A stretch of DNA of 39,735 nt from a virus. The notes below the pieces were generated by a model. That model saw nothing but the letters and a program-made list of their open reading frames with translations, was not told where the DNA came from and searched no databases. Where the stretch lies: the IMG/VR virus record IMGVR_UViG_3300021594_000242, positions 1 through 39,735 of that record; one strand, given 5' to 3'. Positions 3,451-31,063 of this stretch are shown piece after piece. The position numbers and the translations under genes were made by a program. Positions within the stretch are counted from its first letter, which is position 1. Every line of letters starts with the position of its first letter.

Positions 3451-3973
3451 AGATGATTTAGTTAAGCACCTTGATCAGGTTAATCAGGTAGTAGAAGAAT
3501 ATCTGAAGGGTAACGATCCAACTGCAATTTCAAAACAACTTGCAATACCAAGACAAAAAGTTGTTACACTTATTAATGAGTGGAAGGTAATGGCTTCTGC
3601 TAATGACGCTATTCGTGCTCGTGCTAAAGAGGCACTTGCTGCAGCAGACACACATTATAGTAAACTAGTATCTCGTACATACGAAGTTATTGATGAAGCA
3701 TCAATGACAAATAACCTTAGTGCAAAAACTGCTGCTATTAAACTTGTAATGGACATTGAGTCTAAAAGAATTGACATGCTACAAAAGGCTGGTCTTCTTG
3801 AGAACAAAGAACTAGCAGAAGAAATGATTCAGATAGAAAGACGGCAAGAAGTTTTGATGGGAATTCTTCGTGACATAGCGTCTGAGTATCCGCAGATACG
3901 AGATGAGATTATGCGTAGGCTTTCTGATATTGCTAAAAAGGATGAAGTGATTACAATTGTCCACGATGTTTGA
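3437..3973 (+). CDS. terS: terminase small subunit (probable)
   Basis: A 178-residue protein with an N-terminal helix-turn-helix ('DPTAISKQLAIPRQKVVTLINEW', about residues 27-50) followed by long helices, the usual build of terminase small subunits that recognise the packaging site. The strongest evidence is position: it overlaps the start of the large subunit. The small subunit would bind phage DNA and hand it to the large-subunit motor. Sequence similarity to a specific TerS family was not recognised. Confidence 0.65.
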   Translation: MVSTEDDLVKHLDQVNQVVEEYLKGNDPTAISKQLAIPRQKVVTLINEWKVMASANDAIRARAKEALAAADTHYSKLVSRTYEVIDEASMTNNLSAKTAAIKLVMDIESKRIDMLQKAGLLENKELAEEMIQIERRQEVLMGILRDIASEYPQIRDEIMRRLSDIAKKDEVITIVHDV

Positions 3974-5741
3974 TGATTTCTTAGAAGCACTTAAAGATAA
4001 TCATTTTGAAGAAACTCCAGTTGACGCAAAGACATTTGTTGAGTCACCAGACTACCTTGGTCAGCCAGGCCTATCTGATATTCAGTATGACATTGTCGAG
4101 GCAATGAGTCAAATATATCGTAAAGAAGATTTAGAAAATTTAATGGGGCATGAAGAAGGTGCAAGATATTATGAAAAATATACCAAGAATGAAATTATCC
4201 TCCAACTTGGAAAGGGTAGTGGTAAAGATTTTACTTCTACTGTTGCTTGTGCTTACATCGTGTATAAGTTACTATGCCTTAAGGATCCAGCCAGATATTT
4301 CGGCAAACCCACTGGGGATGCTATAGACCTAATCAATGTTGCTATTAACGCTCAACAGGCCAAGAATGTTTTCTTTAAAGGTTTTAAAACAAAGATTGAA
4401 AAGTCTCCTTGGTTTGCAGGCAAGTATAACCCCAAAGCAGATTCAATTGAATTTGATAAATCAATTACTGTTTATTCTGGACACTCAGAGCGTGAATCAC
4501 ATGAGGGACTAAACCTTTTGCTTGCAGTTCTGGATGAGATTTCTGGTTTTGCATCAGAGGTTGGCACAGGAAATGAACAAGGAAAGACTGCAGAAAACAT
4601 ATACAAAGCATTCCGTGGATCTGTAGACTCTCGTTTTCCAGACCTAGGTAAAGTTGTTTTGCTTTCGTTCCCAAGATATCCAGGAGACTTTATTTCAGAA
4701 AGATATGAGTCTGTTATTGCAGATAAAGAAGTAATAGAAAAGAAGCATGAGTTTATAATTAATCCACTATTGCCAGAAGACGATAAAGATAATAGGTTTG
4801 AAATATCGTGGGATGAAGACCAAATACTTTCATATAAGTATCCTGGAGTCTTTGCACTTAAAAGACCTACATGGGAAGTAAACCCTACAAGAAAAATTGA
4901 CGATTTCAAGATTGCATTTATGACAGACCTTGGAGATGCAATGATGCGCTTTGCCTGTGTACCAACATTTGCTTCTGACGCATTTTTTAAGCAGGCAGAA
5001 AAGTTAAGATCCTGCATGACAACTAGAAACCCAATAGATGATTTTAAAAGGTTTGATGAATCATTTAAACCAGACCCAAATAAAAAATATTATGTACACG
5101 CAGACCTTGCACAAAAGCATGACAAGTGTGCAGTTGCAATTGCCCATGTAGAAAAATGGGTAAACATACAGGTAATCAATAATTATGAACAGGTCGCCCC
5201 AATAGTTGTAGTAGATGCCGTTGCTTGGTGGGAACCAAAGGTAGAGGGTCCAGTAAATCTATCTGAGGTTAAGCAGTGGATACAAAACCTAAGAAGAATA
5301 GGGTTTGATATTGGCATGGTTTCTTTTGACCGTTGGCAGTCATTTGATATTCAGAATGAGTTAAATCAGGTAGGAATGAAAACTGATACTGTTTCTGTTG
5401 CTAAAAAACATTATGAGGATATGGCTATGTTGGTATATGAAGAAAGACTTGTTATGCCAGCAATAGAGTTATTGTTTGAAGAATTAACCCAGTTAAAAAT
5501 TATGAAAAATGATAAAGTTGATCACCCCAGGAAAAAATCTAAAGACTTGGCCGATGCTGTGTGTGGTGCTATTTTTGGTGCTATATCTCACACTCCTAAG
5601 AATATAGACTCTGAAGTAGAGGTTCATACTTTTAGGGATAGGCCACGCCAGGTTGACGAACTACCTGCAAACGTGATACAATATAAACCTAGTCAAATAG
5701 AAGAGATTAAAGACTATTTGGATAGACTAAAAACAATATAA
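3966..5741 (+). CDS. terL: terminase large subunit
   Basis: The motor and nuclease that packages DNA into the prohead. The ATPase half has a Walker A 'LGKGSGKDFTS' near residues 80-92 and a Walker B 'LLLAVLDEIS' near 180-190. The nuclease half has the acidic positions 'YYVHADLAQKHD', 'VSFDRW' and the C-terminal 'KDLADAVCGA'. The 591-residue length is normal for this family. ATG 3966, overlapping the small-subunit stop, is preferred; TTG 3957 is possible. Unusually, no portal gene follows; the next gene encodes a secreted protein, so the head genes lie elsewhere. Confidence 0.9.
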   Translation: MFDDFLEALKDNHFEETPVDAKTFVESPDYLGQPGLSDIQYDIVEAMSQIYRKEDLENLMGHEEGARYYEKYTKNEIILQLGKGSGKDFTSTVACAYIVYKLLCLKDPARYFGKPTGDAIDLINVAINAQQAKNVFFKGFKTKIEKSPWFAGKYNPKADSIEFDKSITVYSGHSERESHEGLNLLLAVLDEISGFASEVGTGNEQGKTAENIYKAFRGSVDSRFPDLGKVVLLSFPRYPGDFISERYESVIADKEVIEKKHEFIINPLLPEDDKDNRFEISWDEDQILSYKYPGVFALKRPTWEVNPTRKIDDFKIAFMTDLGDAMMRFACVPTFASDAFFKQAEKLRSCMTTRNPIDDFKRFDESFKPDPNKKYYVHADLAQKHDKCAVAIAHVEKWVNIQVINNYEQVAPIVVVDAVAWWEPKVEGPVNLSEVKQWIQNLRRIGFDIGMVSFDRWQSFDIQNELNQVGMKTDTVSVAKKHYEDMAMLVYEERLVMPAIELLFEELTQLKIMKNDKVDHPRKKSKDLADAVCGAIFGAISHTPKNIDSEVEVHTFRDRPRQVDELPANVIQYKPSQIEEIKDYLDRLKTI

Positions 5742-5767
5742 ACCAAATGAATAATAAAAGGAGAAAA

Positions 5768-6895
5768 ATGAATTCATTTAAGAAGATCGCTCTTGCCGTG
5801 GTTGCAGCCATGACTATGAGCACACTAGTAATGACACCTGCAAGTGCCAATACCGTTTCTGTGGACGTAACAACAGAAATTTCTGGCGCAGGTACTGCAG
5901 CCTCACCATTTACAGTTAAGGTTCCATCTGATAACGTCGTAAGCGTTGCAGATACTTCAACTGTTACAAACAACGAAGCACTTCTTATCACCGCTACAGT
6001 TGTTGCTGGAACACCAGTAACATTTACTGCAGTTGGTGCTGGAACACGCCTCGTCTCTGCAATTGGTTCAACAGTTAATGCATCTGCTGGATCATCATCA
6101 ATCACAGTCACACCTGCTTCAACAACAGCGACTGTATATGCATATACAACAACTACTGCTGCATCTGCGGTTACAGTTTCTGTAACTGGTGCAAGCACAA
6201 CAATTTATCTTAAGGGTGTTGCAGGTCCTGCATATGAACTTAAGATGTCAATCCCTGCTTCAGGAAATATTTCTGGCAAGGTAACTGCAACTCTTGATGT
6301 AGCAGATATTTTCGGCAATGCTGTTGCTGATACAGTAACTGTTACTACTCTTGGTGGCGCAACTGCTGGAACAGTAACTGCTGATGCTCTTGTAACAGGT
6401 CGTTACACATCAGAGATCTCACTTCCTGCTGCTGCTGGAACCGTTGCTGTCGGTGCATCTATTGCTGCTCCAACATCTGTTCCAACAATTAAGTTGGCAA
6501 CAACTTCACAGACTGCAATCGTAACAGTGTCTGATCTTGCTACTGCTCTTGCTGCTGCTAACGCTGCACTTGCTGCAGAAAAGGCTGGTCGTGTTGCTGA
6601 TGCAACTGCTGCTGCTACTGCTCTTGCTGCTGCTGTAAAAGCAGAACAAGACAAGGCTGCTGCTGCTGCAATTACTGCTGCTGCAGAATTGGCTAAGGCT
6701 AAGGCTGATGCTGTAACCGCTAAGGTTGCTGCAGACAAGGCACTTGCTGATGCAACTGCTGCACATGCTGCAGAACTTGCAAAGGTTAAGGCAGACAATG
6801 CTGCTGCAATCGCTGCAATGAAGAAGGCATTCAATGATCTTGCCAAGAAGTGGAACGCAAAGAATCCAAAGGCAAAGGTTACACTTGTTAAGTAA
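5768..6895 (+). CDS. secreted Ala-rich surface protein with beta-domain and C-terminal coiled coil
   Basis: The start is ATG 5768, 5 nt after AAAGGAG; ATG 5747 is too far from it. The 375-residue product has a clear signal peptide ending 'TPASA' at residue 27, a Thr/Val/Ser-rich beta region to about residue 250, then about 100 residues made largely of Ala and Lys with heptad-like repeats, predicted as a long coiled coil, and a basic tail. Codon use is richer in GCT and GCA and more even than in neighbouring genes, consistent with high expression or recent origin from a host surface-protein gene. It resembles S-layer-like wall proteins in composition only. It ends in a strong terminator. Confidence 0.7.
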   Translation: MNSFKKIALAVVAAMTMSTLVMTPASANTVSVDVTTEISGAGTAASPFTVKVPSDNVVSVADTSTVTNNEALLITATVVAGTPVTFTAVGAGTRLVSAIGSTVNASAGSSSITVTPASTTATVYAYTTTTAASAVTVSVTGASTTIYLKGVAGPAYELKMSIPASGNISGKVTATLDVADIFGNAVADTVTVTTLGGATAGTVTADALVTGRYTSEISLPAAAGTVAVGASIAAPTSVPTIKLATTSQTAIVTVSDLATALAAANAALAAEKAGRVADATAAATALAAAVKAEQDKAAAAAITAAAELAKAKADAVTAKVAADKALADATAAHAAELAKVKADNAAAIAAMKKAFNDLAKKWNAKNPKAKVTLVK

Positions 6896-7004: not shown

Positions 7005-8642
7005 ATTAAAAAACTAGTAAGAGTATTGTCAGCAGCACTTTTGGCTTTTGGATTCAACCTATGGATTCCTGAAAATGCCTATGCAAACTGTGTAAACTTT
7101 ATACAATCACAAACCATAGCAGCAGCATACGAAGGCGATGCTGAACCTACAGTGCATCATATGGACACTTGCTCAGGTGACGACATATCTTATCAAATAC
7201 CAATAGCAACTACCGTGACTTTTGACGGGGTACAGTATGAAAACATTTATGCAACAACTAACTCAGTAATTACATTTGGACAACCTGACGGTACATTTCA
7301 TACCTATCCATCTACACCATCTATCTCTTTATATTCAATGGACTGGTTTCCAGGAGTGAGCGGAACATCTGGTTTGGACATATATTATTCTGAAGGTGGG
7401 TTTCAAATGAACCTCAATATGGTCCCATTCGGTAACTATGGGGCACAGCCAAGTACAGTAAATATATTGGTGGCTATCACTAATACTGGCGGTTTGGCGG
7501 TGTCTTACAGTTATCAAGGCCCTGAATATCAAAATCTTAGAACAGGTGTTCGTTTGCATGATGGGTCAGTAGTTTCTTTGGAGGCTTGGGGTGCAACACA
7601 GGTTTCGGCCTCTGATCCAGCCCCTACACTGCAAGCAGAGCCTATTCCAGAGCCATCTCCTACGCCTACCCAGCAGCCCTCTCCAGAACCCTCTCAAACG
7701 CCCACAGAAGCCCCTATAACGCCCGAAGAGCAGCAAGAGCAGGTGGCAGAGGCAGCACAGTTGGCTGGAGAAATATCAGACTTAAATAATCTTATTGCTT
7801 CTATTAATGGTGACACATTAAGTGAGCCAGATCCAGAACTACCTTTGGATATTGAGCCAACTCCAGACCCAAGTCCTGAGTCTACAAATGAACTAGATTT
7901 GCCTGACCCTGATGTTGAGGTTGATCCAGAGATAATTACTCCAGAGGATCCAAGGTTTCCTGACGATGAGGAGAATGATCCAGACAATGTAGAGCCTTCT
8001 CCAACTCCAGAATCCTCGCCTTCAGAGGACGAAGCATCAACCGAACCAGAACCCAGTCCAGAGCCAATCCCAGACACAGACCAAACAGAAACCACAGAAC
8101 CTGATCAAACACCTGAAGACACCCCTTCCGAAAATACTGAAACAGGTAATGATACCACAAACGATAGCAGTCCTATCTCTGATGAAGAACTTAATAAGTT
8201 AAATAAACTAATCGGACAAAATGATGCTAAATTGGCTGCAGAACTATCAAATATGTTGACAGAACTATCTTTATCTGAAGAAAAAGCATTGGCCAACGAG
8301 TTAGGCATTAAATCAGAAGATGTAGAAGCACTTGTTGAATTAATTAAAGATGATCCTAAAATAGCAGTAGCCTTTGTAGAGTTTTCAAGTAGAGCAGAAG
8401 AAAACGCAGATGCCCCAATGCCATATACATTAGCAGATGCCGTTACTGAAGTACAAACAGAAGCATTCTTATCAGATCCACTTGGAGCAGTGTTCAATGT
8501 GGATGTTACAGAACTCCTATCTAATTTCTCTGAGTTAGGTATGGATATGACAGATGATCAGAGAGAAAAAGCACAGGAAGTAATTATCCCAGTAGTACTT
8601 GTTTCTAACATAGTATCTGCGGTAATTGGAATGAGGAGGTAA
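7005..8642 (+). CDS. secreted, membrane-anchored surface protein with Pro/Glu-rich stalk; ATT start
   Basis: The frame closes at TAA 6987, and no ATG, GTG or TTG occurs before TTG 7026. ATT 7005 sits 8 nt after GGAGG and gives a perfect signal peptide, 'IKKLVRVLSAALLAFG...ENAYA'; TTG 7026 would remove the basic N-terminus. The 545-residue product then has a beta-rich domain (about 30-195), a long Pro/Glu/Ser/Thr stalk with repeated E-P-S-P-T-like units (about 200-385), a helical acidic domain and a hydrophobic end ('VIIPVVLVSNIVSAVIG') before Arg-Arg, like a wall or membrane anchor. A role in altering the host surface is inference. Confidence 0.75.
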   Translation: MKKLVRVLSAALLAFGFNLWIPENAYANCVNFIQSQTIAAAYEGDAEPTVHHMDTCSGDDISYQIPIATTVTFDGVQYENIYATTNSVITFGQPDGTFHTYPSTPSISLYSMDWFPGVSGTSGLDIYYSEGGFQMNLNMVPFGNYGAQPSTVNILVAITNTGGLAVSYSYQGPEYQNLRTGVRLHDGSVVSLEAWGATQVSASDPAPTLQAEPIPEPSPTPTQQPSPEPSQTPTEAPITPEEQQEQVAEAAQLAGEISDLNNLIASINGDTLSEPDPELPLDIEPTPDPSPESTNELDLPDPDVEVDPEIITPEDPRFPDDEENDPDNVEPSPTPESSPSEDEASTEPEPSPEPIPDTDQTETTEPDQTPEDTPSENTETGNDTTNDSSPISDEELNKLNKLIGQNDAKLAAELSNMLTELSLSEEKALANELGIKSEDVEALVELIKDDPKIAVAFVEFSSRAEENADAPMPYTLADAVTEVQTEAFLSDPLGAVFNVDVTELLSNFSELGMDMTDDQREKAQEVIIPVVLVSNIVSAVIGMRR

Positions 8643-9753: not shown

Positions 9754-10254
9754 ATTAAAGTTTTAGATAACTTTTTAAATAAAAATGATTTTAAAACTAT
9801 TCACGATACTGTTCTGGGGGGTAGTTTCCCTTGGTTTTATAGTCCAATTGTAGTGTCTTCAGATGAAGAGTATGGAATAGATAAGTTTCAATTTTTTAAT
9901 ACACTATGTCTAAAAAATGAAATTAAATCAGATTTTTATAATGTATTAGATCCGTTAATAAAAAAAATAAATCCTTCATACATATATAGAGTAAAGGTAA
10001 ATCTTGGCACAAGGACAAGCGTCCCAGTAGTTGGTGGCATGCATTCAGATACTGAGTTTAATAATACAACAGCAATATTTTATTTAAATAATAATAATGG
10101 ATATACCATTTTTGAAGACGGATCAAAAGTAGACAGTGTAGAAAATAGGCTTGTTGTGTTTAATTCAAATGTAATGCATTCTGGAGTATCACAAACAGAC
10201 TCTAAGGTTAGATGTGTTATTAATTTAAATTATATTAGCGAATTGACAAATTAG
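9754..10254 (+). CDS. 2-oxoglutarate/Fe(II) dioxygenase; ATT start
   Basis: The only upstream in-frame codons after the TAG at 9742 are GAG AAA AAA ATT; ATT 9754 is 6 nt after AGGAG. GTG 9853 would remove 33 residues, including the conserved 'FPWFY' region of this phage oxygenase family. The 166-residue product has the iron facial triad His97-x-Asp99 ('GMHSDTEF') and His142 ('VMHSG'), with Arg153 placed to bind 2-oxoglutarate. It probably hydroxylates a protein or small molecule. The start of this gene uses the same ATTAAA string as the gene at 7005. Confidence 0.8.
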   Translation: MKVLDNFLNKNDFKTIHDTVLGGSFPWFYSPIVVSSDEEYGIDKFQFFNTLCLKNEIKSDFYNVLDPLIKKINPSYIYRVKVNLGTRTSVPVVGGMHSDTEFNNTTAIFYLNNNNGYTIFEDGSKVDSVENRLVVFNSNVMHSGVSQTDSKVRCVINLNYISELTN

Positions 10255-12368: not shown

Positions 12369-12481
12369 TGCGTATTAAAATTATTAAGTTTGTAGTTAAA
12401 CTACTTGGTTATGAGTGGTCTGGTGATGAACTTAAACTTCCTGTTTGGCAAGTAAAGGCTAAATCAAAGAAAAAGAGTTAA
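12368..12481 (+). CDS. tiny basic hypothetical protein
   Basis: A 37-residue protein running from an ATG that overlaps the previous stop (TAATG) to a TAA that overlaps the next ATG. It starts with an amphipathic basic helix ('MRIKIIKFVVKLLG') and ends in Lys-Ser repeats. The exact packing between two genes supports it being real. Peptides of this build may insert in membranes. Confidence 0.55.
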   Translation: MRIKIIKFVVKLLGYEWSGDELKLPVWQVKAKSKKKS

Positions 12482-13101
12482 TGGTCGCAAACCTTACACC
12501 TATTAAACCTACACATATTTATGCAGGTGCTGTTGCTGTATATGAGAATGTGTGGAAAGACTATGAACAAACAATCAAAGACTTATTGTCTATTGACGAT
12601 GATCAGTCAATTCCTGTTAGTTTTCGTCCATCCCAAACAACGGAAGATTACGAGAGTGGGGATCCTTTGCGCCAATCAGTAAGAACAAGTTATGGTCTTT
12701 CTATTGGAAAGGCTGCTGCTGTAAGTAAAATTGGAAAAGACATATACGAAGCCTGCAATAATCTGGTTAGGTCTGCAATTTCTCAATATACCAAAACATT
12801 TAATATAAATGAAGAAATTAAAGACGCAGAAAGTTATGGACTTTTAAGGTATAATCCTGGTCAAAAGTATAATCTTCATTACGATAATGGAACAGAAACA
12901 TCAAGATCAGTTTCTGTCTTGATTTATTTAAATGATAATTATGAGGGCGGAGAGTTAGAGTTTGCTAATTTTAATTTAAAGATAAAGCCAAAAGCAGGGA
13001 CATTAGTGCTTTTTCCTTCAAATTATGCATATGCTCATCTTGCTCATCCAGTAGTGACTGGAACAAAATATGTAATAGCAACATGGTTAAAGGATAAATA
13101 A
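12481..13101 (+). CDS. 2-oxoglutarate/Fe(II) dioxygenase, prolyl-hydroxylase-like
   Basis: A 206-residue double-stranded beta-helix protein with His133-x-Asp135 ('NLHYDNG'), the typical 'SVLIYLNDNYEGGELEF' strand pair, 'KPKAGTLVLFPS' and the distal His189 ('LAHPV'); Lys196 takes the usual 2-oxoglutarate-binding Arg/Lys place. It belongs to the prolyl 4-hydroxylase-like group common in aquatic phages, substrate unknown. It is one of eight such oxygenases in the window and the only one inside the + strand late-type operon next to the endolysin. Confidence 0.82.
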   Translation: MVANLTPIKPTHIYAGAVAVYENVWKDYEQTIKDLLSIDDDQSIPVSFRPSQTTEDYESGDPLRQSVRTSYGLSIGKAAAVSKIGKDIYEACNNLVRSAISQYTKTFNINEEIKDAESYGLLRYNPGQKYNLHYDNGTETSRSVSVLIYLNDNYEGGELEFANFNLKIKPKAGTLVLFPSNYAYAHLAHPVVTGTKYVIATWLKDK

Positions 13102-15265: not shown

Positions 15266-15547
15266 ATGAATAGGTATGAATGGAAAGATAATGCTGCATG
15301 CCTAGATTATGATACTAATGTTTTTTTTGATAAATACGAAGAAGATGAGTTGTTAAGGCCTGCTGTAGACCTGCTATGTTCTGAATGTCCAGTAAGAAAA
15401 GAGTGTTTTTCTGTTGGTATTTCTGGCAAAGAGTGGGGCGTTTGGGGCGGGGTATACTTAGAAAACGGCGAAATATCAAAAGAATTTTCTAGCCATAAAA
15501 CAAAATCTGATTGGGGTGTAACATGGCAGTCTTTAACAATGGACTAA
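15266..15547 (+). CDS. whiB-like: WhiB-family Fe-S transcription regulator
   Basis: A 93-residue protein with the four WhiB cysteines, Cys12 ('AACLDY'), Cys38, Cys41 and Cys47 ('LCSECPVRKEC'), and the turn 'GVWGG' at 58-62. WhiB proteins bind a 4Fe-4S cluster sensitive to oxygen and nitric oxide and act with the main sigma factor. They are found only in Actinobacteria and their phages, which supports the host call. A phage WhiB could redirect host RNA polymerase; given the oxidative-stress genes at 20-23 kb, redox sensing is a plausible input. The basic C-terminal DNA-binding tail is short. Confidence 0.9.
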   Translation: MNRYEWKDNAACLDYDTNVFFDKYEEDELLRPAVDLLCSECPVRKECFSVGISGKEWGVWGGVYLENGEISKEFSSHKTKSDWGVTWQSLTMD

Positions 15548-19424: not shown

Positions 19425-19576
19425 TGTCAAAAAGAAAATCATCTGGCAAGTACAGATCAAAGCATCCATTTAATCCAGTTCAGATTAAAGACGGAATGAT
19501 TGTTCGTTTAAGAAAAGACGGTACTGTTAAGGCAGTTCTTGGTAAATACGGCGAGTATAACAAGAAAGATAAGTAA
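19424..19576 (+). CDS. small basic hypothetical protein
   Basis: A 50-residue, Lys/Arg-rich protein ('MSKRKSSGKYRSKHPFNPVQIKDGMIVRLRKDGTVKAVLGKYG'), with a beta-hairpin-like 'GMIVRLRKDGTVKAVLG'. Both ends overlap neighbours by one base (TAATG), so it is translated with them. It could bind nucleic acid. No family recognised. Confidence 0.6.
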   Translation: MSKRKSSGKYRSKHPFNPVQIKDGMIVRLRKDGTVKAVLGKYGEYNKKDK

Positions 19577-19827
19577 TGAAAGAACTAATACATTTTACAG
19601 CGGAATGGTGTAATCCATGCAAAAGAATGGCACCAGTTATAGATGAGTTTTTAAAAAATAATACAGATATTCACTATGATAAGGTTGATGTTGATACAGA
19701 ATTTTATAAAGCCGAGCAATACAATGTTCAATCAGTTCCAACTTTAATATCAAAAATTGACGGCAAAATTTATGATCGTGTTTCTGGCGTTGTATCTGAA
19801 TTTAAATTAAAATCAATGTTTGGTTAA
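19576..19827 (+). CDS. thioredoxin
   Basis: A short thioredoxin (83 residues) with the active site Cys12-Asn-Pro-Cys15 ('AEWCNPCKRMAP') and the cis-proline 'VQSVPTLI'. It lacks the N-terminal strand of cellular thioredoxins, as is common in phage versions. It would reduce disulfides, and is a natural electron donor for the AhpC and GPx-like peroxidases encoded on the other strand at 20.5-22.6 kb. The CNPC active site is unlike the common CGPC. Its end overlaps, tail to tail, a small gene on the - strand. Confidence 0.85.
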   Translation: MKELIHFTAEWCNPCKRMAPVIDEFLKNNTDIHYDKVDVDTEFYKAEQYNVQSVPTLISKIDGKIYDRVSGVVSEFKLKSMFG

Positions 19828-19971: not shown

Positions 19972-19974
19972 TTG

Positions 19975-20046
19975 AGCCTCCTGTAGGATTTGAACCTACG
20001 ACAACCCGCTTACAAGGCGGGTACTCTACCCCTGAGTTAAGGAGGC
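19975..20046 (-). tRNA. tRNA-Thr (TGT)
   Basis: Acceptor GCCTCCT/AGGAGGC, D-arm, anticodon stem CCCGC/GCGGG with loop CTTGTAA (anticodon TGT), T-arm with GTAGG/CCTAC; no encoded CCA; discriminator T. It follows ahpD by 6 bp and probably lies on the ahpCD transcript. Confidence 0.92.
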
Positions 20047-20052
20047 AATCCA

Positions 20053-20565
20053 CTATGCTACAACAACCTTTGCAATAGCATTAATAGTTGCAGCAATTCG
20101 TCCAATATCACGAAGTTGTTCAACTGTATATCCTTCTTGTTTTAAGGTTTCATAGTGAGCCTTAACACAAAAATGACATTTACCAATGATTGATGCAATT
20201 AATGCATAAGACTCAAACTTAGCCTTTGTTGTACCTCCATGAGATGTAATAGCATTCATTCTAAGTTGTGCAGGTAATCCAGTTAAGTTAGGATCGTCTG
20301 CCATTTCAGTATATGGATACCAAACATTGTTTTGTGCCATCAATGCTGCTGCTGTAAATGCTGCATTTTTTTCTACCTCATCTGTAACGCCAGCAGAAAT
20401 CATAGCAACAATATCTTGATTACCTGTTGCTAATGCTGCTGCAAGTGCGAGGGATGAAGCATAATCATAATCTACAGTACTTCTATTAATGACAGCATCA
20501 AGATTTAACTTAATGTCTTTAGCATATTCAGGAACAAGTTCCTTGACTTCATCTACCCAAGTCAT
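20053..20565 (-). CDS. ahpD: alkylhydroperoxidase AhpD
   Basis: A 170-residue AhpD-family protein with Glu118, Cys130, Cys133 and His137 ('FESY...GKCHFCVKAH'), the same positions as the proton-relay residues of Mycobacterium AhpD. It passes electrons to AhpC and has weak peroxidase activity of its own. It overlaps ahpC by 4 bp (ATGA), the usual actinobacterial operon order. The sequence is intact and full length, so it should be functional. In cells lacking AhpF this protein is the AhpC reductase. Confidence 0.93.
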   Translation of the reverse strand: MTWVDEVKELVPEYAKDIKLNLDAVINRSTVDYDYASSLALAAALATGNQDIVAMISAGVTDEVEKNAAFTAAALMAQNNVWYPYTEMADDPNLTGLPAQLRMNAITSHGGTTKAKFESYALIASIIGKCHFCVKAHYETLKQEGYTVEQLRDIGRIAATINAIAKVVVA

Positions 20566-21131
20566 AGTGTTTCTCCACCAAGGCTTCTATTGCATGCACA
20601 AAGTTCTCCTGTTTGAAGAGCATCAAGAATACGTAATGTTTCTTCTGGACTTCTTCCGACATTAAGATTATTTACAGTTACATGTTGAATAACATTATCT
20701 GGATCAATGATAAATGTTGCACGAAGAGCAACACCATCCTCATTTAGAACACCAAGTTGAGTTGCTAAACCAGTGTAGCCTTCTTTATCATCCCATTGAA
20801 ATTCACGAACCTGATCTGCAAAAGACCAAGAATTGGTTTTCTTTAGATCTTCATGTGCATTACGCCATGCAATCTTGCAAAACTCATTGTCTGTTGATCC
20901 TGTTAATAATACTGCATCACGATCATTGAAATCATTAACTAACTTATCGTATGCCACAATTTCTGTTGGACAAACAAAGGTAAAATCCTTTGGATAGTAT
21001 ACAAGGACCTTCCATTTTCCTGGAAACCATTGTTCATTTAATACTTCAAAAACATCATCAGCGCCATCCAGTCTTCCTGGTTTTACTCCGACAATACGAA
21101 ATGGATTTAATTTATATCCAATTGTTTTCAT
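20562..21131 (-). CDS. ahpC: alkyl hydroperoxide reductase AhpC (2-Cys peroxiredoxin)
   Basis: A 189-residue peroxiredoxin: peroxidatic Cys54 in 'DFTFVCPTE' and C-terminal resolving cysteines 178 and 180 ('GELCACNRS'), the mycobacterial three-cysteine type rather than the enteric one. It reduces hydrogen peroxide and organic peroxides. ahpC is the first gene of the ahpC-ahpD-tRNA-Thr unit. A hairpin with direct repeats upstream (21167-21227) is a probable control region. A purine-rich ribosome site precedes the ATG. Confidence 0.93.
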   Translation of the reverse strand: MKTIGYKLNPFRIVGVKPGRLDGADDVFEVLNEQWFPGKWKVLVYYPKDFTFVCPTEIVAYDKLVNDFNDRDAVLLTGSTDNEFCKIAWRNAHEDLKKTNSWSFADQVREFQWDDKEGYTGLATQLGVLNEDGVALRATFIIDPDNVIQHVTVNNLNVGRSPEETLRILDALQTGELCACNRSLGGETL

Positions 21132-21166
21132 TATATCTCTTTCTTCTATGTTTGATCAAAAATAGG

Positions 21167-21227
21167 GGGTGTAGTGTTGCAACATAGGCTATAAGTGTTT
21201 CCCGACAAATATAGGCTAACTACACCC
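21167..21227 (-). promoter_or_regulatory. hairpin and direct repeats upstream of ahpC
   Basis: GGGTGTAGT (21167-21175) and ACTACACCC (21219-21227) form a 9-bp stem, with a run of A/T-rich TTTTT after it in the - direction, so it can end transcription from the GPx gene. In the loop, two copies of ATAGGCTA (21184-21191, 21211-21218) lie 27 bp apart, about 2.6 helical turns. A possible promoter in the loop, - strand TTGTCG-N16-TATGTT, drives ahpC. The repeats are good candidates for a regulator site. Confidence 0.5.
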
Positions 21228-21253
21228 TTACTACTATTATAGCATTATAGGGG

Positions 21254-21688
21254 CTATACTGCAATATCGGATACCTTATATGAACTAGGATAATGCTTTA
21301 TAGATCCATCTGTAGACACTAAAAATTTTTCAAAATTCCAACCAATATCTCTTCCCCCAGTAGCCTTCTCCTTGCAATATTTATATATTGGGTGGGCATT
21401 TGGACCATTAACCTCTATTTTTTCAGAGATGGCAAATGTTACTCCGAAGTTAGTTGTACAAAATTGCTTAATTGCTTCATTGGAGTCTGGCTCTTGGTTG
21501 CCAAATTGATTACAGGGAAATCCAATAACGACTAACGAATCACTTTGTGCCTTTTGTAAGTCTGCATATTGTGAGGTGTACCCACATTTGCTTGCTGTGT
21601 TTACAATAAGAATATTTTTATCCTTAAAGTTTTTTAGTTCTACAACATTTTTGTTGTTGTCTATAAATGATAAATCATATATGCTCAT
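21254..21688 (-). CDS. glutathione peroxidase family, thioredoxin-dependent type
   Basis: A 144-residue GPx: 'NTASKCGYTSQY' with peroxidatic Cys35, 'GFPCNQFGNQEP' and 'GWNFEKFLV' with Trp117-Asn118 complete the catalytic tetrad. Cys77 ('IKQFCTTNFGV') is at the resolving position of Cys-type, thioredoxin-using GPx proteins. Reduction by the nearby phage or host thioredoxin is likely. The ATG follows a hairpin that carries its Shine-Dalgarno sequence (21693-21735). The protein is slightly shorter than usual (about 160). Confidence 0.9.
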   Translation of the reverse strand: MSIYDLSFIDNNKNVVELKNFKDKNILIVNTASKCGYTSQYADLQKAQSDSLVVIGFPCNQFGNQEPDSNEAIKQFCTTNFGVTFAISEKIEVNGPNAHPIYKYCKEKATGGRDIGWNFEKFLVSTDGSIKHYPSSYKVSDIAV

Positions 21689-21692
21689 AAAA

Positions 21693-21735
21693 ATTCTCTC
21701 CTATGTTCTATACTAAGTATATCATAGGAGAGAAT
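21693..21735 (-). promoter_or_regulatory. hairpin hiding the GPx Shine-Dalgarno, with a promoter in the loop
   Basis: A perfect 13-bp inverted repeat, ATTCTCTCCTATG (21693-21705) and CATAGGAGAGAAT (21723-21735) on the + strand. On the - strand the 3' arm carries AGGAGAG, the ribosome site of the GPx gene, and is followed by TTTTT then ATG. The loop carries - strand TGaTATACT, an extended -10. Read-through RNA would fold and hide the site; RNA from the internal promoter lacks the first arm. Confidence 0.75.
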
Positions 21736-21758
21736 GGTTTTTATTAATAACTAATTTA

Positions 21759-22562
21759 TTAAACAGCAACTAGTTCGTCTGCATTGACATATGCTGGATT
21801 AATGATTGATTTTTCTCCAGCCATCAATCTTTCGATATGGTCACGGATAACAGCATTTTCCTCATTGAAAATGTATTCAGATCTATCTGGACCCATTTTT
21901 GGATCTTGTCCTTTTGCTATTAGATCTTCTTTGAGTGTACGCTCAACATCCCAGTTCAATGTTGTAGCAGGATAATGCTTAACCACATATCCATCTTTAT
22001 CAATTAAATATTTTTCAAAGTTAGCATTCATCATGAATCCGCCATTATGTTCATTTAAATATCTTGATTCATAATCTGTTTTTTCAACTATACCAAGTTC
22101 TTTTTTCTTATTCATTATTTCCAAAATTTGTCTTGAAACTTCTAGATATAGTTCATGTCTTTCTCCAAAAGGCTGTCCATTTCCGTTAAGTCCTGGTCCT
22201 TTTCCTAGCCATGGTGCTTCTAGTGGGATTTCTGCGGGATTTGATGTAATCATTTCTGAAAATGGGAACGTAACACCATAAACATCTATTCCGTAATTCT
22301 TTGAGTCTAAACCACAAGTGATACCTTTTGACCACTTTCCTTTTGTAATGCTAGGACCACAGAAGTCATTTGTTGGAATTGCAACAACAGTAAAGTCATC
22401 TCCAGCAAGATCTTCCTGAATCCACTGAATAGACTCCATTTGACCAGCGTTTCCACAACCAACTGTTGTGTTGATAAGCAATACTACTTTGCCTTTAAAT
22501 TGCTGCAAGAAGTGTGATTCTCCTTCAGCAGACTCCAATTCGATATCATATATAGATTTCAT
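21759..22562 (-). CDS. divergent, extended glutathione-peroxidase-like protein
   Basis: A 267-residue protein with a GPx-like core: 'INTTVGCGNAGQM' (Cys36 at the peroxidatic place), 'AIPTNDFCGPSIT' and 'ANFEKYLIDKDGYVVKHYP'. The Trp of the tetrad is replaced ('NANFEKY'), Cys68 and Cys83 are extra, and a 70-residue C-terminal extension ends in charged helices. Activity may differ from true GPx, for example a thiol-disulfide or reductase-like role. It is the first of the two tandem GPx genes and has its own SD (AGGAGG). Confidence 0.75.
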   Translation of the reverse strand: MKSIYDIELESAEGESHFLQQFKGKVVLLINTTVGCGNAGQMESIQWIQEDLAGDDFTVVAIPTNDFCGPSITKGKWSKGITCGLDSKNYGIDVYGVTFPFSEMITSNPAEIPLEAPWLGKGPGLNGNGQPFGERHELYLEVSRQILEIMNKKKELGIVEKTDYESRYLNEHNGGFMMNANFEKYLIDKDGYVVKHYPATTLNWDVERTLKEDLIAKGQDPKMGPDRSEYIFNEENAVIRDHIERLMAGEKSIINPAYVNADELVAV

Positions 22563-24288: not shown

Positions 24289-25047
24289 TTAGATGCCCAT
24301 TTCTTTACGCTTTTGCGTAGCCGATATAGCATGAATATTTGCTCCCAAATCTACTTGTTCAATCTTATAGCCTACATCACGACCATAAACAATATTTGTA
24401 ATATTTGGCAGTCGTAATACTAATGTATCCTTAAATGGATTATCTTGCTGAATATATGTTGCAACCTCATCATACTTCAATGGATCCTTTTCTGATGTCT
24501 TGTATGTATTGCGAACACCTACTAATACCTGCTTAGTTCTTTTGTGAGCCTCTTCTTTGAGAGCCTGATGCCCTTCATGCCAAGGCTGATATCTTCCTAA
24601 CTGAAGAGTTGTTGGGGCAGACCAATCAAACAAGGCGCCCGCCTGTATTACAGTGTCTACTTCCTGCTCTAATGTGTATCCGTCTAGAATTCTGATATCA
24701 AATCTTTCTGGATCTTGCCACATTTTATTTGTATCTTCAAATCTACCTTGCTTAATTCTGTCTACCCAAACAACAACATCTGCTGGGCCAAATGCCTCTC
24801 TGGTTTCTTTAGTAGGACAAACAAAGTCAACAATGACAGGAGCAACGCCCTGATTTGCAATTAGCCTTGCCATCTCTCCCATGCGACGAGCATGCTCAAT
24901 CCTATCTTCGGCGGTAAATCCAAGATCAGAATTAACTGTAGATCTTACCTCATCAGCATTAAGATGTATAGCATTAATTCTTTCTTTAAGTGCCGTTGCA
25001 AGTGCAGTCTTACCAGATCCAGGCAAGCCTATAATTTGTATGATCAT
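24289..25047 (-). CDS. fusion of an APS-kinase-like domain and a nucleotidyltransferase
   Basis: A 252-residue two-domain protein. Residues 1-140 form a P-loop kinase like adenylylsulfate kinase: 'GLPGSGKT' at 7-14, 'LNADEVRSTVNSDLGFTAEDRIEHARRMGEMARL' and 'VIVDFVCP'. Residues 147-252 form a HxGH nucleotidyltransferase ('LGRYQPWHEGHQ', HEGH at 157-160, and 'ISATQKR' near the end). The second half resembles NMN/cytidylyl-transferase-like enzymes rather than ATP sulfurylase. It may make a modified nucleotide or cofactor; the sulfur link is inference. Promoter and AGGAG precede the ATG. Confidence 0.8.
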   Translation of the reverse strand: MIIQIIGLPGSGKTALATALKERINAIHLNADEVRSTVNSDLGFTAEDRIEHARRMGEMARLIANQGVAPVIVDFVCPTKETREAFGPADVVVWVDRIKQGRFEDTNKMWQDPERFDIRILDGYTLEQEVDTVIQAGALFDWSAPTTLQLGRYQPWHEGHQALKEEAHKRTKQVLVGVRNTYKTSEKDPLKYDEVATYIQQDNPFKDTLVLRLPNITNIVYGRDVGYKIEQVDLGANIHAISATQKRKEMGI

Positions 25048-29529: not shown

Positions 29530-30156
29530 ATGACAGTATTTCAAGATCCAGTAGAAAAAGTAAAAATCATTGAAAATTTTATAAACACGGAAGAATCAAA
29601 TAAAATAATTAATTATATGAATCGTAATATTGTCAATGCCGAACCATGGATGAGCGACGGATCAAGTCCAAACTTTGTTTATCTTGAAAATAGATTTTAT
29701 AAAAGAAGGTTTGGACAAGATGATGAAATGAGATCATATAAACCAGAGAAAGCCATAACAAGGCTTGAGGATATAGAGAACTTGGTTAAAGATATAGTCG
29801 AAAAGGCAAAATTAAAAATACAAGAACTATACAATGAAGAAACACAATACCTGACATCACTATGGCTTACAAAGCATTTAAAAGGTGATTGGATCAACAT
29901 TCATTCTGATGTAGGCAGTGGATATCAGCAGCATTTTGCTTATAGTTGTATTTTATATCTTAATACAGTAATTGATGGAGGAGACTTATATTTTCCAACT
30001 TTTAATTTTTCTGTTAAACCAATTGTAGGCAACTTAGTTATTTTCCCATCGCAGAATGTAGATATGGTTCATCAAGTAAACGCTACACAGGAAGAAAGGT
30101 ATACTATTCCTATGTGGTTTACCAAAGACTCAACAAGAGAAGTTTTTTTTAAATAG
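29530..30156 (+). CDS. 2-oxoglutarate/Fe(II) dioxygenase
   Basis: A 208-residue protein with His125-x-Asp127 ('INIHSDVGSGYQQHFAYSCILYLN'), 'GGDLYFPTFNFSVKPIVGNLVIFPS', His181 ('MVHQV') and Arg190. It resembles the prolyl 4-hydroxylase-like group. The start is set by the promoter 6 nt upstream. It is followed by the GIY-YIG gene after a 27-bp gap with its own promoter. Confidence 0.82.
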   Translation: MTVFQDPVEKVKIIENFINTEESNKIINYMNRNIVNAEPWMSDGSSPNFVYLENRFYKRRFGQDDEMRSYKPEKAITRLEDIENLVKDIVEKAKLKIQELYNEETQYLTSLWLTKHLKGDWINIHSDVGSGYQQHFAYSCILYLNTVIDGGDLYFPTFNFSVKPIVGNLVIFPSQNVDMVHQVNATQEERYTIPMWFTKDSTREVFFK

Positions 30157-30183: not shown

Positions 30184-30495
30184 ATGACCCTACTCTACAT
30201 ACTCTATAGTCCCATACATAAGGCCGTTAAGGTGGGTATATCAGATGTTTCAGGTAGAAGGTTTGCAAGCCATAGGACCAAGGGCTGGATATTAATTAAG
30301 TATTGGGCCTTTTCTCGGCGGGATCAAGCAAGAGCCGTAGAAACCTTAGTACTAAACACACTAAGAGATAGGTATGGACATTTCTTGGATAAAGACGATA
30401 TGCCACAAGGTGGTTATACAGAAACATTTGATGCTAGTAAGATAACTAGACGAGGTTTGATAAGGATAGTCAACAATGCTATTAAAAGTCAGTAA
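30184..30495 (+). CDS. GIY-YIG-like nuclease (T5orf172/Mug113 type)
   Basis: ATG 30184 is chosen because of the promoter 6 nt upstream; an in-frame ATG at 30163 lies before the -10 box. The 103-residue product opens 'LLYILYSPIHKAVKVGISDVSGRRFASHRTKGW', matching the GIY...(K/V)GIS...R...H pattern of T5orf172/Mug113 GIY-YIG domains. Such domains nick DNA. The catalytic Glu is probably in 'RAVETLVLNTLRDRY'. It could be a free-standing homing-type nuclease or a repair enzyme. Confidence 0.65.
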   Translation: MTLLYILYSPIHKAVKVGISDVSGRRFASHRTKGWILIKYWAFSRRDQARAVETLVLNTLRDRYGHFLDKDDMPQGGYTETFDASKITRRGLIRIVNNAIKSQ

Positions 30496-31063
30496 ACCCT
30501 GCTCTATTTAATATGTCCCAATATTGTTTAGCATACACGAATGCAGAATATACAATACGATCCTTACCTGTGACCTGTTTTACAGCATGACTATATTCTT
30601 CACTTGCTGGAAACACTATTAATGTTCCCTTTTTAGGTGCAAACTCAATAGGTTTGTGTTCAAATATTAACTCTCCACCTGTGTATCCATCATTTAAATA
30701 TAGCACAACACCAAGGGTAATCCATCTAGATTCGTAATCACATTCTGGGTGGTTTTCGTAGTGATACCCCAAAGCCAATGGAGATGAATCCGTAGGGCTA
30801 TACTTTTGCAACATAGATATCTTTCTTAGTTTTTGATCTTTATTGTTGGTTACAATAGAAACCTTGTCCTCAACGAGTTTTTTAAATTTATTGATCGCCT
30901 CTTCTGACTCAAATATAGAAAATGATATCTTTTCATGATGATCTTGTCTTCTGAGAGTCCAAGATCCGACATTAGCAAGAACCTCTTCTATGTCAGGATC
31001 TGATATAAAATTTTCTATGTAAAAGATATTTTCTTCTAGGTAGACTTTGTTGAAATTTTCCAT
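30482..31063 (-). CDS. 2-oxoglutarate/Fe(II) dioxygenase with HxE motif
   Basis: A 193-residue protein with His101-Tyr-Glu103 ('GYHYENHPECD') in place of His-x-Asp, 'GVVLYLNDGYTGGELIF', 'APKKGTLIVFPAS', His159 ('YSHAV') and Arg169. Like the gene at 22604 it uses Glu as an iron ligand, or is an altered enzyme. TATAAT lies 9 nt before the ATG, so the leader is at most a few bases. It converges with the GIY-YIG gene, overlapping 14 bp. Confidence 0.8.
   Translation of the reverse strand: MENFNKVYLEENIFYIENFISDPDIEEVLANVGSWTLRRQDHHEKISFSIFESEEAINKFKKLVEDKVSIVTNNKDQKLRKISMLQKYSPTDSSPLALGYHYENHPECDYESRWITLGVVLYLNDGYTGGELIFEHKPIEFAPKKGTLIVFPASEEYSHAVKQVTGKDRIVYSAFVYAKQYWDILNRAGFTDF

Follow-up and report, generated by a model that had tools for sequence, protein, structure and literature searches.

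We report that a pair of peroxide-removal genes on an actinophage, ahpC and ahpD (together ahpCD), lies in a tRNA-flanked slot that is filled in related phages by katG, the gene for a haem catalase-peroxidase. The stretch analysed, hereafter the window, is IMG/VR record IMGVR_UViG_3300021594_000242 at its full length of 39,735 nt, a linear fragment from a tailed actinophage of about 115 kb. Its minus strand reads, in order, two 2OG oxygenase genes, GPx2 and GPx1 of the glutathione peroxidase (GPx) family, a structured RNA, AhpC, AhpD and tRNA-Thr. The exchange of a thiol peroxidase pair for a haem catalase-peroxidase at one site is the best evidence that peroxide removal is the selected property. 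It is probable, judging from sequence, that the source is a tailed phage of aquatic Actinobacteria with accessory peroxide-removal genes, and that removal of peroxide in the infected cell has been selected, as the replacement of ahpCD by an unrelated peroxidase indicates. The two gene sets are interchangeable alleles of the slot.

The link to katG came from the structured RNA, which was traced into relatives and led to locus L290, where the next gene encodes a 686-residue KatG (positions 4419-6476). The viral scan contains 150 KatG relatives, and the best 80 of the 150 were examined. The slot KatG is full length and scores above the NCBIfam cut-offs, and the distal Arg-Trp-His, the Met-Tyr-Trp adduct residues and the proximal His are invariant in 63 phage KatG. 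A tRNA lies upstream at 59 of these best 80 loci, most of which share their gene neighbourhoods and tRNA arrays with ahpCD. It is evident from matched pairs that the two genes replace each other. Between L473 (katG) and L054 (ahpCD), identity in the flanks is 98.4% over 1.5 kb on the upstream side and 92% on the downstream side; between L462 (katG) and L045 (ahpCD) it is 94.7% (5′) and 97.3% (3′). In L464 katG, and in L022 ahpCD, lies between the same two tRNAs, a tRNA-Glu and the tRNA-Thr that follows ahpD in the window. Both flanks are common to 45 KatG loci and 86 AhpCD loci. On a tree of the terminase large subunit (TerL) with 44 tips, at least 11 parsimony changes between ahpCD and katG are required, no fewer than with shuffled labels (mean 12.1); some of the 11 may stem from recombination of the slot relative to TerL, or from short branches with poor resolution.

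The slot is usually part of a tRNA array. In 76 of the 96 testable contigs a same-strand tRNA lies no more than 150 nt from ahpC, ahpD or both, and 44 have one on each side, compared with 10% upstream and 7% downstream for control open reading frames (ORFs) at the same loci. Opposite the tRNA-Thr of the window there is a weak Rfam match to Plastid-ycf2 (30 bits against a cut-off of 66), presumably an antisense-tRNA artefact. Two side observations concern the katG loci. In L448 an AhpD homolog follows katG (about position 7220) with Cys133 changed to Ser, so that its CxxC has become CxxS; it may be a degenerate ahpCD remnant or serve a new use. In L462, L466 and L473, a short ORF of roughly 40 codons accompanies katG, lying directly 3′ of it (MRSAMFYLLHSTAIIGLMIGSYAYGFKQAA... 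in L462), and resembles small membrane peptides.

All five ORFs (AhpD, AhpC, GPx1, GPx2 and thioredoxin) are open and complete, and they belong to the families CMD/AhpD, AhpC-TSA, GSHPx, GSHPx and thioredoxin, respectively. The catalytic residues that an earlier note on this DNA had claimed for AhpC and AhpD were recovered exactly, as was the CNPC thioredoxin near the cassette. AhpC has the three cysteines Cys54 (in DFTFVCPTE), Cys178 and Cys180, invariant in 67-68 phage proteins, and AhpD has the relay Glu118, Cys130-x-x-Cys133 and His137. For the two enzymes together, 66-68 distinct phage sequences show no variation at these positions, except that one phage AhpC is gapped at 178 and 180. Among solved structures the closest are M. 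tuberculosis AhpC (2bmx) and AhpD (1gu9/1knc). The phage AhpC scores 95.6 bits against an equivalog cut-off of 272 for NCBIfam TIGR03137, the enterobacterial-type AhpC, which we read as a model of another subfamily. Similarly, AhpD matches TIGR00777 over its full length (E 5e-32) at 111 bits, below the curated cut-off of 192, and appears to be a divergent member of the AhpD family. At least 599 AhpC and at least 598 AhpD relatives were found in the IMG/VR scans. The median ratio of nonsynonymous to synonymous substitution rates (dN/dS) at viral loci is 0.056 for ahpC and 0.055 for ahpD, and that of katG is 0.105. These genes are under purifying selection.

As is known biochemically for these families, AhpD reduces AhpC and is itself supplied with electrons by the dihydrolipoamide of host dehydrogenase complexes, and GPx1-type enzymes draw theirs from thioredoxin. 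In the infected cell, the phage AhpC, which we infer to be expressed and active, would reduce H2O2 and organic peroxides via Cys54. Its disulfide (Cys54 with Cys178/180) would be reduced by the Cys130-x-x-Cys133 pair of AhpD, which, by analogy with mycobacteria, would probably be recharged by host lipoamide (dihydrolipoamide acyltransferase and Lpd). GPx1 would act as a second peroxidase with electrons from phage or host thioredoxin. The earlier proposal that the phage keeps peroxide low during infection is supported as the likely role. The accompanying idea of hosts without catalase fits published work on the freshwater acI Actinobacteria, of which axenic cultures were kept by adding catalase, and in which KatG is patchy or weak and haem synthesis unrecorded (PMC7527133, PMC8353197); acI as the host is our own suggestion. 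A scavenger would be valuable to an acI phage because acI have weak KatG and need added catalase. Tentatively, and with somewhat less than an even chance of being right, we propose that the tRNA array holds a dedicated and rapidly exchanged peroxidase slot (ahpCD or katG, in one lineage beside the GPx pair and the structured RNA), that it provides catalase-poor hosts, for example acI, with a means of peroxide removal that they do not have, and that infection success depends on the scavenger brought.

Several points weigh against a selected role in peroxide removal. No phage-encoded AhpD reductase was identified, so the electrons would have to come from the host. Phage KatG would need scavenged haem if the host makes none. 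Enzyme activity and the infection role are read from sequence, and we infer the link to catalase-poor acI. The slot could also be a recombination hot spot open to any gene. KatG is absent from 50 AhpCD records and AhpC from 36 KatG records examined, which is suggestive only and not significant alone at such frequencies, because most near relatives carry neither; the argument for a swap therefore rests on the matched flanks and not on the statistics of non-co-occurrence. Finally, GPx or TerL led to 12 genomes with a length of at least 95 kb, and eight of these carry neither ahpCD nor katG, so the function is dispensable.

The alternative that survives best, with a fair share of the probability though well short of even, is that the genes mainly shield the host from outside or grazer oxidants (in sunlit water or protist phagosomes) rather than serving a need of phage replication. 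Such a role was proposed in the main text of Kavagutti et al. 2019 (PMC6802176) for phage GPx, superoxide dismutase, thioredoxin and ferritin, and viral katG genes are most abundant at low salinity (PMC13390420). The source of the peroxide is not separable here, however, as uncharged H2O2 crosses membranes and both readings predict the same enzymes. It is unlikely, in our judgement, that the tRNA array is simply a recombination hot spot with ahpCD and katG as weakly selected passengers of little importance to infection. The tRNA flanks, the rapid alternation on the TerL tree and the eight near-complete relatives without either gene would be expected in that case, but strong purifying selection and invariant active sites would not, nor would the arrival of two unrelated genes with the same activity in one slot. 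The AhpD next to katG in L448 has also lost one CxxC cysteine, as it would if ahpC were the only reason to retain ahpD.

The GPx proteins form a second module. GPx1, whose best solved relative is yeast Hyr1 (3cmi), has the tetrad of Cys, Gln, Trp and Asn and a resolving Cys; its Cys35, the Gln of CNQF, Trp117-Asn and Cys77 align with Hyr1, and the thioredoxin-dependent type previously assigned to it agrees with these residues. GPx2 retains Cys36 and Asn, but across its family Gln is replaced by Asp (TNDF for CNQF) and Trp by Ala or Gly; of its own cysteines, Cys68 is conserved and Cys83 mostly so. An AlphaFold model of GPx2 (predicted local distance difference test score, pLDDT, 82) has the GPx fold and matches GPX8, GPX4 and Hyr1 (E to 2e-8). 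GPx2 is thus a GPx-derived phage family whose activity is not readable from known GPx enzymes. The claim of intact catalytic residues in all of the proteins therefore holds for AhpC, AhpD, GPx1 and thioredoxin and fails for GPx2. Both genes show low median dN/dS (gpx1, 0.079; gpx2, 0.075). The hairpin between them is strong, and translational control of gpx1 is possible.

The GPx2-GPx1 tandem was found in tens of contigs. Only two of the 18 large records with GPx also carry AhpC, and only 20 of the 48 AhpCD records carry a protein of the GPx family; the complete set of ahpCD and the GPx pair is found only in the window and its near relatives. Because they are usually found apart, ahpCD and the GPx pair should be considered two modules rather than one. 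The single, complete and self-consistent cassette of the earlier note is not borne out: most phages with the GPx pair lack ahpCD, most with ahpCD lack the GPx pair, and GPx2 has lost two of four catalytic residues. Yeast Hyr1/Orp1 is a peroxide sensor. As it is also the nearest solved relative of GPx1, and GPx2 is without two catalytic residues, the AhpC, AhpD or GPx proteins could serve redox signalling or chaperoning, e.g., tuning WhiB or another host redox switch, instead of bulk detoxification. We regard this as quite improbable, since replacement of ahpCD by a catalase-peroxidase fits peroxide removal and not a thiol relay, an argument that does not extend to GPx2.

The ahpCD pair resembles a betaproteobacterial operon. 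In a scan of 84,980 species, the best AhpC relatives are from Burkholderiales and other Pseudomonadota (59-65% identity), and ahpD lies beside ahpC in 71 of 80 of the best cellular relatives. A tree places all 68 phage AhpC in one clade (support 0.87), which joins Betaproteobacteria (0.998) and not the actinobacterial plasmid copies. The ahpC-ahpD operon of Burkholderiales (Ralstonia, Cupriavidus) has the same order and catalytic residues, with 64-68% identity in AhpC and 43-58% in AhpD, whereas actinobacterial AhpC (plasmid copies) share 49-52%. These results suggest that ahpCD was likely acquired by transfer from a betaproteobacterium, on a tree built without acI (Nanopelagicales) sequences. 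The ahpCD pair is thus closest to the betaproteobacterial operon and not to the mycobacterial one, and a mycobacterial or host-actinobacterial origin is unsupported by the same tree, from which Nanopelagicales AhpC was absent. The M. tuberculosis proteins share the three-cysteine AhpC and the Glu/Cys/Cys/His AhpD, but AhpC identity is only about 49% and the window AhpC has an 11-residue insertion relative to 2bmx. Where the Burkholderiales operon has gaps of 56-194 nt, ahpC and ahpD share 1-4 nt at 137 of 144 viral loci, and in the phages they usually lie within a tRNA array. No oxyR neighbor was noticed at phage ahpCD; oxyR flanks ahpC in some alphaproteobacterial and actinobacterial plasmids.

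The phage location proposed for these genes is confirmed by TerL in the window and by a 115,665-bp relative, G050 (3300044612_001159), which encodes portal, head protease, tape measure, DNA polymerase, primase and DnaB helicase. The alignment of G050 with the window is collinear, covers 96% of the latter, for the most part at 93-95% identity, and preserves the gene order; the identical 126-bp ends of G050 indicate a complete genome. A chimeric assembly of the window is very unlikely, because G050 aligns over 96% of it in the same order, and the AhpCD-GPx1-GPx2 order is repeated in contigs from several samples (L003-L005). Chimerism or host contamination, to which the metagenomic source of IMG/VR records and the similarity of AhpCD to Burkholderiales genes might point, is given a negligible chance in view of these contigs, the collinear genome with identical ends, the monophyly of phage AhpC and the phage tRNAs at the junctions.

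The nearest isolate relatives of the TerL, DUF932 protein and WhiB of the window (55%, 55% and 42-46% identity) are the Streptomyces phages Gilson, LukeCage and Riptide (about 130 kb; 127-133 kb), and by TerL and WhiB homology the window belongs to an actinophage related to them. WhiB is present in 38 and TerL of the window type in 32 of the 48 large AhpCD records, so most of these are actinophages of one broad group. Unlike the window, these Streptomyces phages lack the genes in question: among 50,697 phage records AhpD has no match, and what matches AhpC or KatG among isolates is distant and either lies in other phages or looks like host DNA, with many of the records resembling short or host-derived contigs.

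The RNA element upstream of ahpC shows covariation. In nine sequences, eight of 16 pairs are changed on both sides somewhere, and there are 17 double-changed cells versus 4.6 after shuffling, with slid controls far lower. Its internal loop is conserved (TGTCGGGAAACA ... GTTGCAACAC). Rfam gave no match to it, only tRNAs scoring above the cut-off. The element sits in the same slot in relatives, near gpx1, ahpC, katG or other genes, and a peroxide-specific control element was rejected since the hairpin also precedes genes other than ahpC and katG. A consensus promoter scan found fewer sites than in shuffled sequences, so promoter assignments, including the TATAAT, are by inspection only.

The window also contains many 2OG-Fe(II) oxygenase-like genes (9853-10254, 12481-13101, 29530-30156, 30482-31063, the two listed in the table and others), and copies related to them recur around ahpCD and katG in relatives. 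An APS-kinase-like P-loop domain fused to a nucleotidyltransferase domain, possibly NadR-like, is encoded at 24289-25047 (minus strand) and is often close to the slot in relatives.

Table. Positions of features in the window.
Feature	Position	Strand	Remarks
TerL	3957..5741	+	nearest isolates ~130-kb Streptomyces phages, 55%
WhiB-like regulator	15266..15547	+	marker of actinobacterial host
Thioredoxin, CNPC	19576..19827	+	Cys12/Cys15; opposite strand to ahpCD
tRNA-Thr(TGT)	19974..20046	-	6 nt past ahpD stop; downstream slot border
ahpD, AhpD alkylhydroperoxidase	20053..20565	-	Glu118/Cys130/Cys133/His137 intact; start overlaps ahpC stop (ATGA)
ahpC, 2-Cys peroxiredoxin	20562..21131	-	Cys54/178/180 intact; betaproteobacterial-like
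Structured RNA element	21167..21227	-	61 nt; two helices with compensatory changes, then U-rich stretch
TATAAT, candidate -10	21236..21241	-	just before RNA element; putative, by inspection
GPx1, thioredoxin-type Cys glutathione peroxidase	21254..21688	-	Cys35, Cys77, Gln, Trp117, Asn
Hairpin between gpx2 and gpx1	21693..21735	.	3′ arm (minus strand) holds gpx1 ribosome-binding site
GPx2, divergent GPx-fold protein	21759..22562	-	Cys36/68/83 present; catalytic Gln and Trp lost
2OG oxygenase	23311-22604	-	adjoins GPx2 upstream
2OG oxygenase	23998-23315	-	upstream of second 2OG oxygenase, same strand as GPx2

Defence of phages against reactive oxygen species (ROS) has been described before. The main text of Kavagutti et al. 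2019 (PMC6802176) reports it, including GPx and thioredoxin, for aquatic phages from freshwater, many of them actinophages, and does not mention AhpCD, KatG or a shared slot. The catalase-peroxidase gene katG is a reported auxiliary gene of freshwater viruses (Zhou et al., Lake Mendota, as cited in PMC12713726; also PMC13390420), and no report was found, in the literature searched, that treats it as an allelic alternative to ahpCD within a tRNA slot. ahpC has been reported on Microcystis viruses (PMC12542629). The novelty claimed for phage ahpCD thus stands in part: in a literature search that covered main texts, with supplements and most subscription papers outside it, no report was found that describes ahpCD on a phage, the tRNA slot that holds it or its replacement by katG, whereas phage ROS defence and viral katG are already published.

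The tRNA arrays of these phages are swap sites for peroxidase genes, and they provide natural matched phage pairs that are near-identical around the slot and carry different peroxidases. In abundant freshwater Actinobacteria, peroxide removal appears to be left to other organisms. Should the phages of these bacteria supply scavengers themselves and swap two unrelated kinds at a single site, peroxide would be a real constraint on infection in lakes.

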